Part shown: positions 8,807 to 19,342 of the stretch, one piece after another
How the letters are laid out: each line of letters opens with the position of its first letter
Numbering within the stretch: position 1 is the first letter of the stretch
Source: a virus
IMG/VR virus record: IMGVR_UViG_3300045966_000260
Span: 1-38,277 of that record
Length of the DNA stretch: 38,277 nucleotides
Reading direction: 5' to 3' (one strand)
Program-made: the position numbers and the translations under genes
The notes under the pieces: model-generated
What the model was told of the DNA's origin: nothing
Database searches by the model: none
The model's input: only the letters and a program-made list of their open reading frames with translations

Positions 8807-10949
8807 ATCGTTTCCGGCCACGCCGGATGCCACGCTGGCAGCGCAGCAGCGCCTGGGCGCGGTGCAGACGGGCTTTGTCAGTAGCGGGTGCTGGCACAGC
8901 CCCAGTGCCACGACCACGGTGAGCCTGCCGGCGTGCCGCGCCCAGGCCCTGGACACCACGTCTGGCCCGCCGCGCCTGAGCGGCTTTGAGGAAGAGACGC
9001 CGCGGGCCCTGACCTTTGCGGGGGGCGATGGCAGCTACTGGCTCGCCGGGCGCCTCAGCCCGGCCCTGCAGCCGGCGGCCTGGACCTGCCTGGCGGGGAC
9101 GCATTACTGCTGGATCAAACAGCCGACGCGCCCTGCCGTGCCGCCGGGCCTGGTGCTGCTCAGCCGCACGGAGGTTGCCGCCGGAGCGGCCAGCGTGGTG
9201 GCTGATGTGGCTATCCGACGGCTGACGGGCGAGGAACTCCTGAGTACGCCGCGCACGGTGGATGCCTCGGCGGTGTGGTATGTCGAGCCCGGAGCCCAGA
9301 TCCGGGTGGCGGCGGGCGTCACCTTTCTCTTTGGGGGGCAGCTCGTGGCCGGGCGCTATGCCCTGTTTGCCGGGGCCCTGGAGGGCGGCTTCGTGTTTGC
9401 GCCGGGGGCGATCGTCTACCCGGAGTGGTGGGGGGCCGTGGCCGATGGCGTGACCCCGAGCGCCAGTGCGCTCCAGGCGGCGCTCCGGGCGACGTCGACG
9501 GGGCCCGGGACGGGCACGGGGCTGCGGGTGGAGCTTGACTGTGGCGTCTACCTCGTGGACCAGGTGGTGCGCTTTCCGCTCACCAACGGGACGCAGGCGC
9601 TGGAGACGGGGATTACCGTGCAGGGCTGCGGCGCCTTCAACGCGACGGTGCTGCGCCGTGCCCCGGGCTATGCCGGGGTGCTGGTGGAGATCGGCGCCAG
9701 CGGCGGTCCGGCGGTGTCGTGGGTGACCCTCCAGGACATGCAACTTGACTGTCTCGATAAGGCGGCGGGCACGGTGGGGCTGCAGACCTGGAGCACGGCC
9801 AACGATCTCTTGCACCGCCTGCGCCTGACCCACTGTGAGCGGGGGCTGTACACCCGCGGGCTGCTCGTCTCGCTGCGCTTTGAAGATGTGGACATCGAGG
9901 ACAATACCCACGGCTGGCATCACGATGGGCGGCTGGCCACCGGGGGGGCGATCAGCGTGGTGCAGATCACCCGCGGCTTCTGGCGCAACAATACGGCGAA
10001 CAGCCTGTGGCTCCAGAGCGAGACGGCGGCGGTGCCGCCGCTGATGCGGACCTTCCAGGTGAGCGGCACGGTGTTTACCGGCAATGGCGTGACGACCGGC
10101 GGCAACGTGGGCCTGCGGCTGGAAAACGTGGTGAATTTCCAGTGCCACGGGTGCCATTTCGAGGGCCATGATCCGCATGTGCTGATCAGTTCGGCGACCG
10201 GCATCAGCACCAATGCCTCGGGCTATATTACCTTCGAGCAGTGCAATTTTGGCCAGCTCAATGCCGCCGCGGCCGGGACGGATGCGCTGCGCTGGCTCGA
10301 CAACGGCACCACCGCCCAGGCGTTCAATTCGGGGTTGGTGCGCAGCCGGATTACCGCCGGGGTGGTCAATATCGCCTACACGCAGGGCGCGCTGTTTCGG
10401 ATTCTCGACACGGTCCCGGATGGGACGGCGTCGTTCGTGGGGCGCTATTATGCCGTGCGGGGCACGCAAGGCGGCATCCCGGAACTCCTCGTGCGGGGGG
10501 ATACGGACAATCGCGGCTGGGTGATCCAGTCGGTTGAGAAAATCGAGTCGGCGCTGCAAACGACCCATTTTCAGACGCGGTACGCCTCGATCGTGACCAC
10601 GGATGCCGATCCCACCCCGCTCGATCTGTGGACCGATGAGGGCGCGCTCCCGACCGATGGCGCGGTGTATATCCAGGCCTATGTCACGGCCAAACAGGCG
10701 GACAATAGCGATCAGGCCCTGTATGCCCTGGCGGGGGCCTTTATCAGCAGTGGCGGCACGGCGGTGCAAATCGGCACGACAGAATCCCTCCATAGCGCGA
10801 TTGAGAGCAACGCGGGGCTCAATGCGACGCTCGATACGAATCTTGATCGGGTGCGCCTCGTGGTGACGGGCCTGGCCGAGGCGTCGCCGATTTACTGGTT
10901 CGGCCGCGTGGAGGTGATCCGGCTGTTAGCCACGGCGCCGGCGCCATAG
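8736..10949 (+). CDS. Beta-helix (pectin-lyase-like) tailspike with signal peptide
   Basis: A 737-aa protein starting at ATG 8736 with GGGAGGAG upstream. Residues 1-24 look like a Sec signal peptide (hydrophobic L-L-L-L-G-A-L-I, then A-W-S), which is unusual for a virion protein. At about residues 225-245, W-W-G-A-V-A-D-G-V with A-L-Q-A-A-L is the classic entry to the right-handed beta-helix of pectate-lyase-like tailspikes. Asn/Gly-rich coils continue to about residue 560, and the C-terminal part is a beta domain. It probably binds or cuts a surface polysaccharide. It could instead be a secreted enzyme made by the lysogen. Confidence 0.75.
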   Translation: MPGGCVWWCSLLLLGALIQPAWSKSFPATPDATLAAQQRLGAVQTGFVSSGCWHSPSATTTVSLPACRAQALDTTSGPPRLSGFEEETPRALTFAGGDGSYWLAGRLSPALQPAAWTCLAGTHYCWIKQPTRPAVPPGLVLLSRTEVAAGAASVVADVAIRRLTGEELLSTPRTVDASAVWYVEPGAQIRVAAGVTFLFGGQLVAGRYALFAGALEGGFVFAPGAIVYPEWWGAVADGVTPSASALQAALRATSTGPGTGTGLRVELDCGVYLVDQVVRFPLTNGTQALETGITVQGCGAFNATVLRRAPGYAGVLVEIGASGGPAVSWVTLQDMQLDCLDKAAGTVGLQTWSTANDLLHRLRLTHCERGLYTRGLLVSLRFEDVDIEDNTHGWHHDGRLATGGAISVVQITRGFWRNNTANSLWLQSETAAVPPLMRTFQVSGTVFTGNGVTTGGNVGLRLENVVNFQCHGCHFEGHDPHVLISSATGISTNASGYITFEQCNFGQLNAAAAGTDALRWLDNGTTAQAFNSGLVRSRITAGVVNIAYTQGALFRILDTVPDGTASFVGRYYAVRGTQGGIPELLVRGDTDNRGWVIQSVEKIESALQTTHFQTRYASIVTTDADPTPLDLWTDEGALPTDGAVYIQAYVTAKQADNSDQALYALAGAFISSGGTAVQIGTTESLHSAIESNAGLNATLDTNLDRVRLVVTGLAEASPIYWFGRVEVIRLLATAPAP

Positions 10950-13417: not shown

Positions 13418-13465
13418 GGAGAAGCCGCCCTGGTGGCCCCCCGCTGCCGGGGCGGCTACTTCTCC
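13418..13465. terminator. Possible bidirectional terminator hairpin
   Basis: GGAGAAG pairs with CTTCTCC and CCGCC with GGCGG (3-base bulge) around a GC-rich loop. The stop codon of the minus-strand split gene lies in the stem. It sits between convergent operons. There is no clear U-run, so intrinsic termination is uncertain. Confidence 0.35.
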
Positions 13466-14039
13466 AGCGTGAATGCCTTGACGACGAAGCGCCCGCAGCC
13501 CATCTTGCGGCTGGCGCCGACGCCAATGCGCTGGCCGGCGTAGGCGAGAAAATCGGGCAGCTCATCCGGATTGCGGATCTCGTCCGGGAAATACCCCAGC
13601 GTCCCCACCGCCTCGAAATCCGCGATGAAATCATTCATCCTGAGCGCCCGCTGATTGCTCAAGGGCTGGCCGGTGCCCGACTTGGGCATGACGAGGCGCT
13701 TGTAGGTCCCGTCCGCCTGCGTCTTGCCGGTCGCAAAATCGCTCACCCGCAGCAGATGCCGCAGGTTGTTGGGCTCGCAGGGGCGCTGTGAGGCGGTGCT
13801 ATTGCGTGCCGCCTCGATCAGGCAGCCGTACATCTGATGGCTACTGATGATGATGGCTCCGGCGGCATCGGTATAAAAGGGCCGCCGCGCCAGGCGCTCG
13901 AGTTCGGCGTACTGCTCCAGCGTGTAGCCGTTGCGGCGCAGATATTCTTTGAGGGCGTCCTCGCGCTTCTGTTCGGAGCGGGCGCGGTTCATGCCGCTGT
14001 TTTTCTGGATGTTGATCAGCTCTTCGCGCTCGGGGAAAT
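13456..14039 (-). CDS. Intron-split phage protein, exon 2 (213-aa product with 14786-14843)
   Basis: Joined to the 58-nt exon at 14843-14786, this gives 642 nt, an exact 214 codons, and a 213-aa protein beginning M-Q-R-T-A-H-I-T-L-Y-F-G-E-R. Exon 2 alone could be called from the internal ATG at 13992, but the frame is open back to the predicted 3' splice site at 14039, and the extra residues (Y-F-P-E-R-E-E-L-I-N-I-Q) look like protein. The C-terminus (Q-R-I-G-V-G-A-S, then M-G-C-G-R-F) resembles the G-x-G-R-F end of an uncharacterised phage protein family that I know only as conserved hypothetical. It is last in the replication-side operon. Function unknown. Confidence 0.75.
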
Positions 14040-14563
14040 CATGCTGTTACTTTACTGACTTGATGGACCGGATACCGCGTATCATTCAGCAGCCGGATTT
14101 CTTCCAACCAGGCACGCCGTCTTGCCATAGACGTATCAGAAATCATATATCGCCGGACTCTGCGTTTTCCCGTGGTATAGAACGCATCCTGGGATGGTCC
14201 AAGCTCTTTGTAGCGTTCTCGGGTGATTTCTTCATGGACGGCGATAAGTATTTCTGCCTGCCGCCGTTTCAAACACAAAAACGGCAGCAGGGCGTGACAG
14301 ACAGCAACCGCTTTGGCCCCAGACAATTTCAGCCCATAGAGAGGCTTGCCACGGGTGGCCGAGGGGGGTTGGATATGGACCTTCCCCCCAAAACGGCGCG
14401 CAAGTTTGTCGATAGCTTCACATTGCACTTGTTTGATGGCGATAAAGATCTCGATAGCGAAGCGTCCGCGATTGCGCCCTGGATAATGAAACAGCGAAAA
14501 ACATCCATCGGCGTCCATCAGTCCAGCCAGATAGGCAAGCTCGATATCGTCATCTGTCCACAT
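14039..14563 (-). CDS. LAGLIDADG homing endonuclease (intron-encoded)
   Basis: A 174-aa protein starting at ATG 14563 behind GATGGAGA. Residues 11-19 (Y-L-A-G-L-M-D-A-D-G) form one LAGLIDADG motif with the catalytic Asp. A-I-K-Q, then L-P-F-L-C-L-K-R-R-Q-A-E, matches single-motif enzymes of the I-CreI type, which act as homodimers and cut the intronless allele. The gene lies downstream of the P9 stems of a group I intron. Its TGA stop (14041-14039) straddles the predicted 3' splice site. Its codons contain more A and T than those of neighbouring genes, suggesting recent arrival. Confidence 0.9.
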   Translation of the reverse strand: MWTDDDIELAYLAGLMDADGCFSLFHYPGRNRGRFAIEIFIAIKQVQCEAIDKLARRFGGKVHIQPPSATRGKPLYGLKLSGAKAVAVCHALLPFLCLKRRQAEILIAVHEEITRERYKELGPSQDAFYTTGKRRVRRYMISDTSMARRRAWLEEIRLLNDTRYPVHQVSKVTA

Positions 14564-14785
14564 GAAGCATGTTCTCCATCAAGCGGGCAGTCATTGCTGC
14601 TGCCTCTGCGTGTTGTCTTCCATCGCAGATCAGACTGTATCACCATCTCGACCAGGGCCGAGATGCCTCTTGTCAGTCGTTCGCGCCTTCCCCTGCCGGG
14701 GCTGTGCGTCGGGATAACCGTTGCAGGCTTCCCCCGATATTCGAGGTTTTCATGGAAAGTCACCTCTCCATGCCGCATCGTGTTT
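14040..14785 (-). ncRNA. Group I intron, 746 nt
   Basis: Read on the minus strand from 14785. P1: exon end CCGU (U at 14786) pairs with intron UGCGG, giving the expected U-G wobble at the splice site. P2: CAUGGA/UCCAUG. P3: CCUC/GAGG. P4: UCGGG/CCCGA. P5: GCC/GGU. P6: CGC/GCG with a CCCC/GGGG extension. P7: GACUG (14678-14674)/CAGUC (14637-14633). P8: CAUCUCG/CGAGAUG. J8/7 holds GAUA next to CAGUC, close to the GAUAUAGUC consensus. P9: UCUGCG/CGCAGA. P9.1: GGCAG/CUGCC. The last base is G (14040). Splicing restores one 214-codon frame. Confidence 0.9.
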
Positions 14786-14843
14786 ACGGATCCGCGATGT
14801 ACCTCTCGCCGAAATACAGGGTGATGTGGGCGGTGCGTTGCAT
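14786..14843 (-). CDS. Intron-split phage protein, exon 1
   Basis: ATG at 14843 with GGAGG 8 bases upstream; 19 codons plus one base. Without splicing, translation stops at TAA six bases after the last full exon codon's region begins to read intron, giving only a 19-aa peptide. The exon ends in CCGT, which pairs with the intron guide. The leftover T joins AT of exon 2 to make Tyr20. Confidence 0.8.
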
Positions 14844-14865: not shown

Positions 14866-15519
14866 GTTGCGTCGCCGTGGCCGTCGCCGAAGCCGGAGCC
14901 GTCGCCGCTGCCGCAGCCGTGGGCGATGCCGTCGCGCCGTCGTAGTCGATGACCATGCGGCGCCCGGGTCGTTGCGTCGCCGTGGCCGTCGCCGTCGCCG
15001 CTGCCGAAGCCGGAGCCGTAGTCGTCGCCGTGGCCGTCGCCGACGCCGTGGCCGTCGCCGTAGCCGCAGCCGTGGCCGTCGCCGACGCCGTGGCCGTCGC
15101 CGTAGCCGCAGCCGTGGCCGTCGCCGACGCCGTGGCCGTCGCCGTGGCCGTAGCCGAAGCCGAAGCCGATGCCGAAGCCGATGCCGTGGCCGTCGCCGTA
15201 GCCGTAGCCGAAGCCGAAGCCGTAGTCGATGCCGGAGCCGTAGTCGTCGCCGTGGCCGTCGCCGAGGCCGGTGCCGATGCCGTCGCCGATGCCGTCGCCG
15301 AGGCCGGTGCCGGTGCCGGAGCCGCAGCCGGTGCCGGAGCCGTTGCCGTCGCCGTCGCCGCTGCCGCTGCCGTCGCCGCTGCCGCTGCCGTAGCCGGTGC
15401 CGTTGCCGGTGCCGAAGCCGTAGCCGGAGCCGGTGCCGAAGCCGGTGCCGTCGCCGGAGCCGGTGCCGTTGCCGTAGCCGCAGCCGCTGCCGAAGCCGAT
15501 GCCGTCGCCGCCGCCAAAG
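14866..15519. repeat. GCCGNN hexanucleotide array 1
   Basis: About 650 bases made almost only of GCCGNN units (GCCGTC, GCCGTG, GCCGTA, GCCGAA, GCCGGA, GCCGCT, GCCGGT and others). All frames read as dipeptide repeats: on the minus strand GGC-NNC gives (Gly-X)n and can never contain a stop. I call no gene in 14861-15703. The remainder, 15520-15703, is a more AT-rich leader that probably holds the promoter of the 15704 gene. Confidence 0.9.
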
Positions 15520-15703: not shown

Positions 15704-16060
15704 ATGATGCGTGTCTACATCGACATCCGTGAGCATCTCTGGACCTGCCTGTGCGACCTGGCGTATGAGAGCTACCGACATCCACGCCAGCATGCTGCGT
15801 GCCTGCTGGCAGAGGCCATCGAGCGGGCCGTGAGAGAGCGCGACCAGGCCCGTGACCGCGATCTGGACGCCTACCTGGCCGAGGAGCCCGCCCATGCGCC
15901 GGCGCCGTTGCCGTCGCCGTCGCCGAAGCCGCAGCCGTCGCCGTGGGCGATGCCGGTGCCGGAGCCGCAGCCGGTGCCGTTGCCGCTGCCGTCGCCTAAG
16001 CCGGTGCCGTCGCCTAAGCCGGTGCCGTCGCCGGAGCCGGTGCCGTTGCCGCTGCCGTAG
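15704..16060 (+). CDS. RHH-like DNA-binding protein with Pro-X repeat tail
   Basis: A 118-aa protein with ATG 15704 behind GAGGAGG. Residues 1-50 (R-V-Y-I-D-I strand, then helices L-W-T-C-L-C-D-L-A-Y and R-Q-H-A-A-C-L-L-A-E-A-I-E-R-A) fit a ribbon-helix-helix domain. Residues 65-118 are a Pro-x-Pro-x tail (x = S, K, V, L, E, Q) encoded by the start of hexamer array 2, ended by a GCCGTAGCC unit read as CCG-TAG. It is the only plus-strand gene in this part of the minus-strand operon, so it must have its own promoter. Tail length should vary with repeat copy number. Its role is unknown. Confidence 0.65.
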   Translation: MMRVYIDIREHLWTCLCDLAYESYRHPRQHAACLLAEAIERAVRERDQARDRDLDAYLAEEPAHAPAPLPSPSPKPQPSPWAMPVPEPQPVPLPLPSPKPVPSPKPVPSPEPVPLPLP

Positions 16061-16343
16061 CCGCTGCCGCTGCCGGAGCCGTTGCCGGCGCCGCTGCCGT
16101 CGCCGGCGCCGCAGCCGAAGCCGAAGCCGCCGCCGTCGCCGTAGCCGAAGCCGCCGCCGTGGGCGCTGCCGAAGCCGGAGCCGCAGCCGGTGCCGGAGCC
16201 GTTGCCGTCGCCGTCGCCGCTGCCGCTGCCGTCGCCGCTGCCGCTGCCGTAGCCGGTGCCGTTGCCGTCGCCGTCGCCGAAGCCGCAGCCGTCGCCGTGG
16301 GCGATGCCGGTGCCGGAGCCGCAGCCGGTGCCGGTGCCGTGGC
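15897..16343. repeat. GCCGNN hexanucleotide array 2
   Basis: About 445 bases of the same hexamer family. It shares a 94-base exact block with array 1 (16174-16267 = 15315-15408) and contains an internal exact 76-base duplication (15904-15979 = 16258-16333). The first part encodes the Pro-X tail of the 15704 gene. The part after 16060 is non-coding in that frame. It ends just after the stop of the minus-strand gene at 16355. Confidence 0.9.
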
Positions 16344-18554: not shown

Positions 18555-19342
18555 AGCGTTTTCCTCCAGGCGTCATCCTCGTCGAGGATCTGTTTGAGTT
18601 CGTCCACGCTTTGGTATGGCTGCGTGGCCATTCTCCCGTTCTGCTGGTGTTGATACGGGGAGGTCAACCAGTTCTGGAAGGCGCTATACCAGTCAAGATA
18701 CTTATAACCATTGGCCAGCGCTTTACGGACAAAGGCATTCCATTGGGATTCAAGATCGCTATGCATCAGGGCGACGTCTTTGAGCCAGCTCTGGAAGGAA
18801 GGCCTCGAGATGATGGCCTGATACCACTCCTGTTGGATGGTTACTTCTTGCGGCATGAGGGTTTTGGTGCGTCGACCAGCCGCCTTGCGCTTACGCGTGT
18901 GCGCAGCTTTGGTTTTGGGATCTAACGAGATCTCTGGATCTACGAAAGCATTGGGATCTGGAAGAGGGGTTCCTGGGGAGGAGATCTCGTCTCCATTCCC
19001 TGCAAGGAGGCATGGTGCCTGTGGGGCACTCCATGGTGCCTGTGGGGCACTCCATGGTGCCTGTGGGGCACTCCATGGTGCCTGTGGGGCACTGGGCAGC
19101 ATGAGCTGATAGACACTGCGCTGTTGCGTCTGCTGTTTGGTCAGGAGACCTTCCGCCTTCAACACGAAAAGCGCACGGATGATCGAGCGACGGGAGAGGC
19201 TTATCATGGTGGCCATACGGTCAAGCGACACCTGCGCCTGCCCATGTGCATCAGCCTGGCTGGCCAGGCAGGTATAGACGGCGATACCGAATGGACCTAT
19301 ACGGGCACCATAAACCTCGATGAGGGAGTCTGGTATGTACAT
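18551..19342 (-). CDS. Replication initiator (lambda O-like, winged-helix)
   Basis: A 263-aa protein starting at ATG 19342 and coupled to the HNH gene by one base (TGATG). Residues 1-70 look like a winged-helix DNA-binding domain (V-Y-T-C-L-A-S-Q-A-D, M-A-T-M-I-S-L-S-R-R-S-I-I-R-A-L). Residues 84-110 are four copies of A-P-Q-A-P-W-S, encoded by 21-bp iterons. After a basic linker, residues 160-263 form a helical domain that may bind the loader. This is the lambda O arrangement: the N-terminal domain binds iterons inside its own gene, and the C-terminal domain recruits helicase loader. Confidence 0.75.
   Translation of the reverse strand: MYIPDSLIEVYGARIGPFGIAVYTCLASQADAHGQAQVSLDRMATMISLSRRSIIRALFVLKAEGLLTKQQTQQRSVYQLMLPSAPQAPWSAPQAPWSAPQAPWSAPQAPCLLAGNGDEISSPGTPLPDPNAFVDPEISLDPKTKAAHTRKRKAAGRRTKTLMPQEVTIQQEWYQAIISRPSFQSWLKDVALMHSDLESQWNAFVRKALANGYKYLDWYSAFQNWLTSPYQHQQNGRMATQPYQSVDELKQILDEDDAWRKTL
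19012..19093. repeat. Four 21-bp iterons, candidate replication origin
   Basis: Units start at 19012, 19033, 19054 and 19075; the first three are identical and the last diverges after 19 bases. Each holds GTGCC-TGTGG-GGCAC, a 5-bp inverted repeat like the imperfect palindromes of lambda ori. They lie inside the initiator gene. Towards the 3' end of that gene (18916-18962) is a more AT-rich stretch with several GATCT motifs, a possible unwinding region. Confidence 0.7.

Follow-up and report, generated by a model that had tools for sequence, protein, structure and literature searches.

Analysis of the 38,277-base window, by which we mean the whole stretch of DNA analysed (an IMG/VR virus record), revealed a gene on the minus strand that is split by a 746-nt group I intron at positions 14040 to 14785, as indicated by an intronless homologue and by two covariance models, R1 and R2. 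Exon 1 (14786 to 14843, minus strand, 58 nt), defined by the spliced frame and by alignment with the homologue, starts with an ATG at 14843-14841 downstream of the sequence GGAGGA (14856-14851) and ends with the U at the 5' splice site. Exon 2 (13456 to 14039, minus strand, 584 nt), defined by the same alignment, encodes the remainder of a phage protein of 213 aa. Excision of 14785-14040 fuses 14843-14786 with 14039-13456 into 642 nt, that is 213 codons and a stop, and the exact gene of 214 codons proposed by the first-pass annotation was recovered, in agreement with the homologue. The GC content of the intron is 0.54 while that of the window is 0.67. Most of the intron is occupied by an ORF of 174 aa (14039 to 14563, minus strand) which was absent from the first-pass annotation.

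The interrupted gene is the final gene of a leftward operon that also carries genes for an O-like replication protein and a Cro-like repressor, and the genome encodes in addition an integrase, a portal protein, a major head protein and a terminase. Since these four genes and the operon content are those of a temperate tailed phage, the virus was assigned to this type; the operon position and the O-like and Cro-like neighbours make it plausible that the interrupted gene is an early gene. A perfect 21-nt tandem repeat in four copies was identified within the O-like replication gene (19011 to 19093). The replication origin of lambda-like phages is located within the region of the O-like gene.

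The interrupted gene and its intronless homologue

No significant match to the 213-aa protein was obtained in Pfam, PHROGs, NCBIfam, PADLOC or PDB, in line with the earlier description of the host gene as uncharacterised, and the AlphaFold model of the protein (pLDDT 45) was too poor for a structure search. Its glycine-rich C-terminus (GQRIGVGASRKMGCGRFVV, within the part encoded at 13456-13992) weakly resembles the C-terminal loop of Cas6; an identity as a Cas6/RAMP protein was not supported, given E values of 0.013-0.075 only, obtained mostly over the glycine-rich C-terminus, and no match for the homologue.

No relatives of the exon protein were detected in phages, plasmids and genome contigs, and a single one was recovered from viral contigs when the spliced protein served as query, encoded by the 66-kb contig IMGVR_UViG_3300005937_000016 (L002), which shares 65% identity over residues 3-207 and aligns gap-free. 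The residues across the junction, YIADP|YFP, are identical in both proteins, the nucleotide sequences being GATCCGT|ATTTCCCC in the window and GATCCCTATTTTCCC in L002. The start positions of both ORFs coincide, and each is preceded by a Shine-Dalgarno-like sequence. Judged from this alignment, the L002 junction sequence is an empty (intronless) site. Continuity across Pro19-Tyr20, which the first-pass annotation had named as one of the points on which its reading could fail, was thereby observed in the one homologue found. That the junction region is an important, conserved stretch is one of the weaker parts of the reading, as this suggestion is based on one intronless homologue.

Homology alone places the junction with an ambiguity of 1 nt. 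The last base of exon 1 is U, the last base of the intron is G and a U.G pair is present in P1, and the position given above was preferred over the 1-nt slide because of this U.G pair and the terminal G.

Arrays of hexamers in which CGGC is constant and the other two bases vary were found at 14880-15510 and 15898-16340 of the window and at 4529-4979 of contig L007, with 86 of 105, 69 of 74 and 65 of 75 fitting units, respectively. Directly upstream of the exon gene a hexamer array is present in both phages. An array and exon gene module was rejected, since at least 120 viral-contig stretches carry such arrays and none of them has a relative of the exon gene.

Structure of the ribozyme

All structural elements listed by the first-pass annotation, from P1 to P9.1 together with J8/7 and the terminal G, were readable at the places given, both in the sequence and in the fold. 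P1 (14773 to 14789, minus strand, as are all elements below) pairs the exon sequence CCGU (14789-14786) with the guide GCGG (14776-14773), leaving the U.G pair at the splice site, and is followed by the P2 hairpin (14751 to 14772), which was deduced from the fold. The catalytic core (14632 to 14750) was located by the R1 and R2 matches, and its pairs were counted with the relatives; it consists of P3 (CCTC/GAGG, 14746-14743/14669-14666), P4 (TCGGG/CCCGA, 14737-14733/14713-14709), P5 (GCC/GGT, 14728-14726/14719-14717), P6 (CGC/GCG, 14708-14706/14686-14684) with P6a (CCCC/GGGG), P7 (GACTG/CAGTC, 14678-14674/14637-14633) and P8 (CATCTCG/CGAGATG, 14665-14659/14650-14644), with J8/7 being GTGATA. 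The P3-P8 core shows the pseudoknot order of P3 and P7, and all these pairs are standard in the window. Downstream of the core the fold gives P9 (14629-14624/14610-14605) and P9.1 (14604-14586), which together cover 14586 to 14629, while P10 is weak, with about 3 bp.

The 5' part of the intron folds with a z of -4.1 relative to shuffled sequences. A bare helix descriptor gave three matches on both strands of the window and zero to two in each one-strand Markov control; the descriptor alone is only moderately specific and too weak as proof, and therefore the proof lies in the covariance models and the homologue, not in the spotting of helices.

The region containing P7.1 and P7.2 between P7 and P3 is typical of group IA introns. 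No such region was found in the window intron, and because just ACAA separates P7 from P3 the intron was not filed as IA and its subgroup was left open.

Covariance models and related introns

A pattern derived from the P7 and J8/7 of the window retrieved 26 viral stretches, and in most of them the same elements are present further upstream. R1 was built from 11 other phage introns, aligned with the window excluded, and matched the window once, at 14750-14632 of the minus strand with 71 bits (E=1.5e-15), a score that is partly circular since the relatives were fetched by the P7 and J8/7 motifs of the window and retained for the J3/4-P4 motif. Under the imposed group I structure, including the pseudoknot helix P3, 90% of the cells of the R1 relatives pair. 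Changes on both sides were observed in 15 of the 27 pairs, a value reached by none of 500 shuffles, and the signal was destroyed by sliding the partners. Compensatory changes among the relatives occur in P3, P4, P5, P6 and P8, with all four pairs of P3 changed on both sides.

For R2, twelve phage introns belonging to another type were used and the window was again left out; the sole R2 match in the window (25.8 bits, E=2e-4) falls on the same core location as that of R1. On the capsid intron of the mycobacteriophage LittleE, whose splicing was demonstrated experimentally (PMC3706429), R2 scored 55.8 bits; weak matches were obtained with R2 in the T4 td intron and with R1 in the T4 nrdB intron and in LittleE. 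The group I intron reading of the first-pass annotation is thus supported by both models, by the gap-free homologue and by the U.G pair with the terminal G.

When the ribozyme part was compared with phages and plasmids at the nucleotide level, the only matches were short and due to chance. The closest core among the introns compared is that of a ribonucleotide reductase intron from three viral contigs (L003, L004 and L005), in which GAACGACTGACAAG and GUGAUACAGUCUGA are identical to the window and P4, P6 and P9 are similar, while the gene that it interrupts encodes a reductase (RNR_Alpha 4.8e-5, just short of the curated cut-off) and no endonuclease ORF was seen in the intron.

The Rfam model RF00028 gave no match in the window, neither at the gathering cut-off nor at E<=10. 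At the gathering score the same model missed the group IA introns annotated in td and nrdB within the 134-145 kb region of T4 and the spliced capsid intron of LittleE, while it does detect another intron, in contig L017. Since proven phage introns were missed too, the silence of RF00028 on the window is uninformative; of the first-pass statement that a lack of any model hit would speak against the intron, the lack holds for Rfam and not for the purpose-built R1 and R2, which match. Standard scans with Rfam thus overlook some of the group I introns of phages, among them proven ones, and introns in viromes have probably been undercounted.

The intron ORF

The 174-aa ORF encodes a putative single-motif LAGLIDADG endonuclease of the I-CreI/I-CvuI type, as indicated by its match to phrog_5046 (3.4e-23; labelled HNH in PHROGs) and by alignments with PDB sequences. 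Pfam LAGLIDADG models matched below their cut-offs (LAGLIDADG_1, E=0.004), and the ORF aligned with I-CvuI, I-CreI and I-MsoI with E values of about 0.003-0.007. These three enzymes, which originate from rRNA introns of algal organelles, resemble the ORF in having a single LAGLIDADG motif (LAYLAGLMDADGCF in the ORF) and a similar length, while being distant in sequence. LPFLCLKRRQAE of the ORF aligns with QPFLKLKQKQAN of I-CreI. The catalytic Asp of DADG is kept together with a Lys aligned with Lys98 of I-CreI, and the position of Gln47 of I-CreI is Lys in the printed alignment. No relatives of the endonuclease were detected in viral and genome contigs searched by peptide patterns.

The TGA of the ORF (14041-14039) comprises the two final bases of the intron plus one base of exon 2, its first, and so straddles the 3' splice site; because it includes this exon base, the excised intron would lack a complete stop codon.

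The enzymes usually found in phage introns are of the GIY-YIG, HNH, PD-(D/E)xK and EDxHD types (PMC3984707), and a LAGLIDADG enzyme in a phage intron has been described for LittleE (PMC3706429) and, in a single report, for Bastillevirinae (PMC11878797); in view of these cases the present combination is uncommon but not new. The major capsid intron of LittleE (PMC3706429) resembles that of the window: both are group I introns of phages, both carry a LAGLIDADG ORF related to I-CreI, and both have U and G as splice boundaries. The LittleE intron differs in its capsid host gene, in the location of its endonuclease gene on the opposite strand and in its core, which is only distantly similar. The group IA introns of T4 td and nrdB have the core helices in the same overall order, but they lie in different host genes, contain GIY-YIG or HNH enzymes and carry the IA-specific P7.1/P7.2, which is lacking in the window intron.

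Interpretation of the locus

We regard it as nearly certain that the locus is a mobile group I intron inserted in a phage gene of uncharacterised function. Points that count against this reading are the short P10, the partly circular score of R1, the Lys at the Gln47 position of the endonuclease and the silence of RF00028, the last being a control that fails on proven introns as well. In the most likely course, a two-step splicing initiated by GTP, the ribozyme in the transcript would bind free guanosine at P7 and cleave at the U.G pair of P1, after U14786, and the exons would then be ligated after the terminal G14040, restoring the 213-aa frame in vivo. The I-CreI-like enzyme would be expected to cut an intronless allele such as that of L002, which would lead to homing. 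Because the stop codon extends by one base into exon 2, a complete endonuclease frame would be confined to unspliced RNA, so that each transcript could provide either the host protein or the full endonuclease frame.

An open frame in exon 2 alone, starting at the ATG at 13992, would also agree with an intron that has degenerated and lost its ability to splice, with a broken gene giving only a downstream product of 178 aa. However, every core helix is preserved, as are the U.G pair at the splice site and the G at the intron end; the endonuclease frame is uninterrupted, each exon is intact and shows conservation with L002, and no clear Shine-Dalgarno sequence precedes 13992. We consider this explanation highly improbable. 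That a freestanding LAGLIDADG gene was inserted between or into genes without a ribozyme has a negligible probability, since the junction is frame-perfect and backed by L002 and the 71-bit match of R1 lies just upstream of the ORF, even though the endonuclease relatives examined in phages, those of Faust and Lacusarx, are separate genes by annotation and gave no R1 match.

The mobile group I intron is of a known kind, real but ordinary, and it is its host gene that is unusual; the locus provides a further well-supported case of a mobile intron, here in a phage gene of uncharacterised function. If exon 2 alone were annotated, residues 1 to 35 of the host protein would be missing.

Introns in other viral contigs

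With somewhat less than even confidence, we propose that the window intron represents a lineage of phage group I introns which is as yet undescribed and escapes Rfam, characterised by the linker ACAA and by CGAAUAWCGG at J3/4-P4. Its members would have spread into genes for reductases and polymerases and into orphan genes, together with endonucleases of several types, and also into template repeats of diversity-generating retroelements (DGR), where splicing would be needed for the mutagenic template.

Several group I core matches were also found close together in other contigs, with at least five on one strand within about 3.4 kb in L015 (2549 to 5961) and in L016 (4135 to 7547, minus strand) and three within 1.4 kb in L031 (7500 to 8893); the genes concerned look as if they are split by many introns.

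In contigs L029, L014 and L026 the template repeat of a DGR is split by a related group I intron of 187-193 nt that has no ORF. We consider these template-repeat introns more interesting than the copy in the window itself, and a literature search, the coverage of which was incomplete, found no report of introns in this location. In all three contigs the interrupted template repeat lies downstream of the variable repeat. In L029 (9630 to 10165) the variable repeat covers 9630-9739 and the template repeat 9855-9918 and 10112-10165, separated by the intron at about 9919-10111, and a reverse transcriptase gene follows (RVT_1 5e-15; ORF from about 10382). Alignment of the variable repeat with the spliced template revealed a match over 110 nt that is gap-free at the junction. 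Because of this gap-free match splicing of the template RNA before copying would be required, and the template RNA thus seems to be spliced before reverse transcription. Summed over the three contigs, of which L014 and L029 have an identical template repeat and hence are not fully independent, 47 of the 48 differences between variable and template repeats are located at template adenines.
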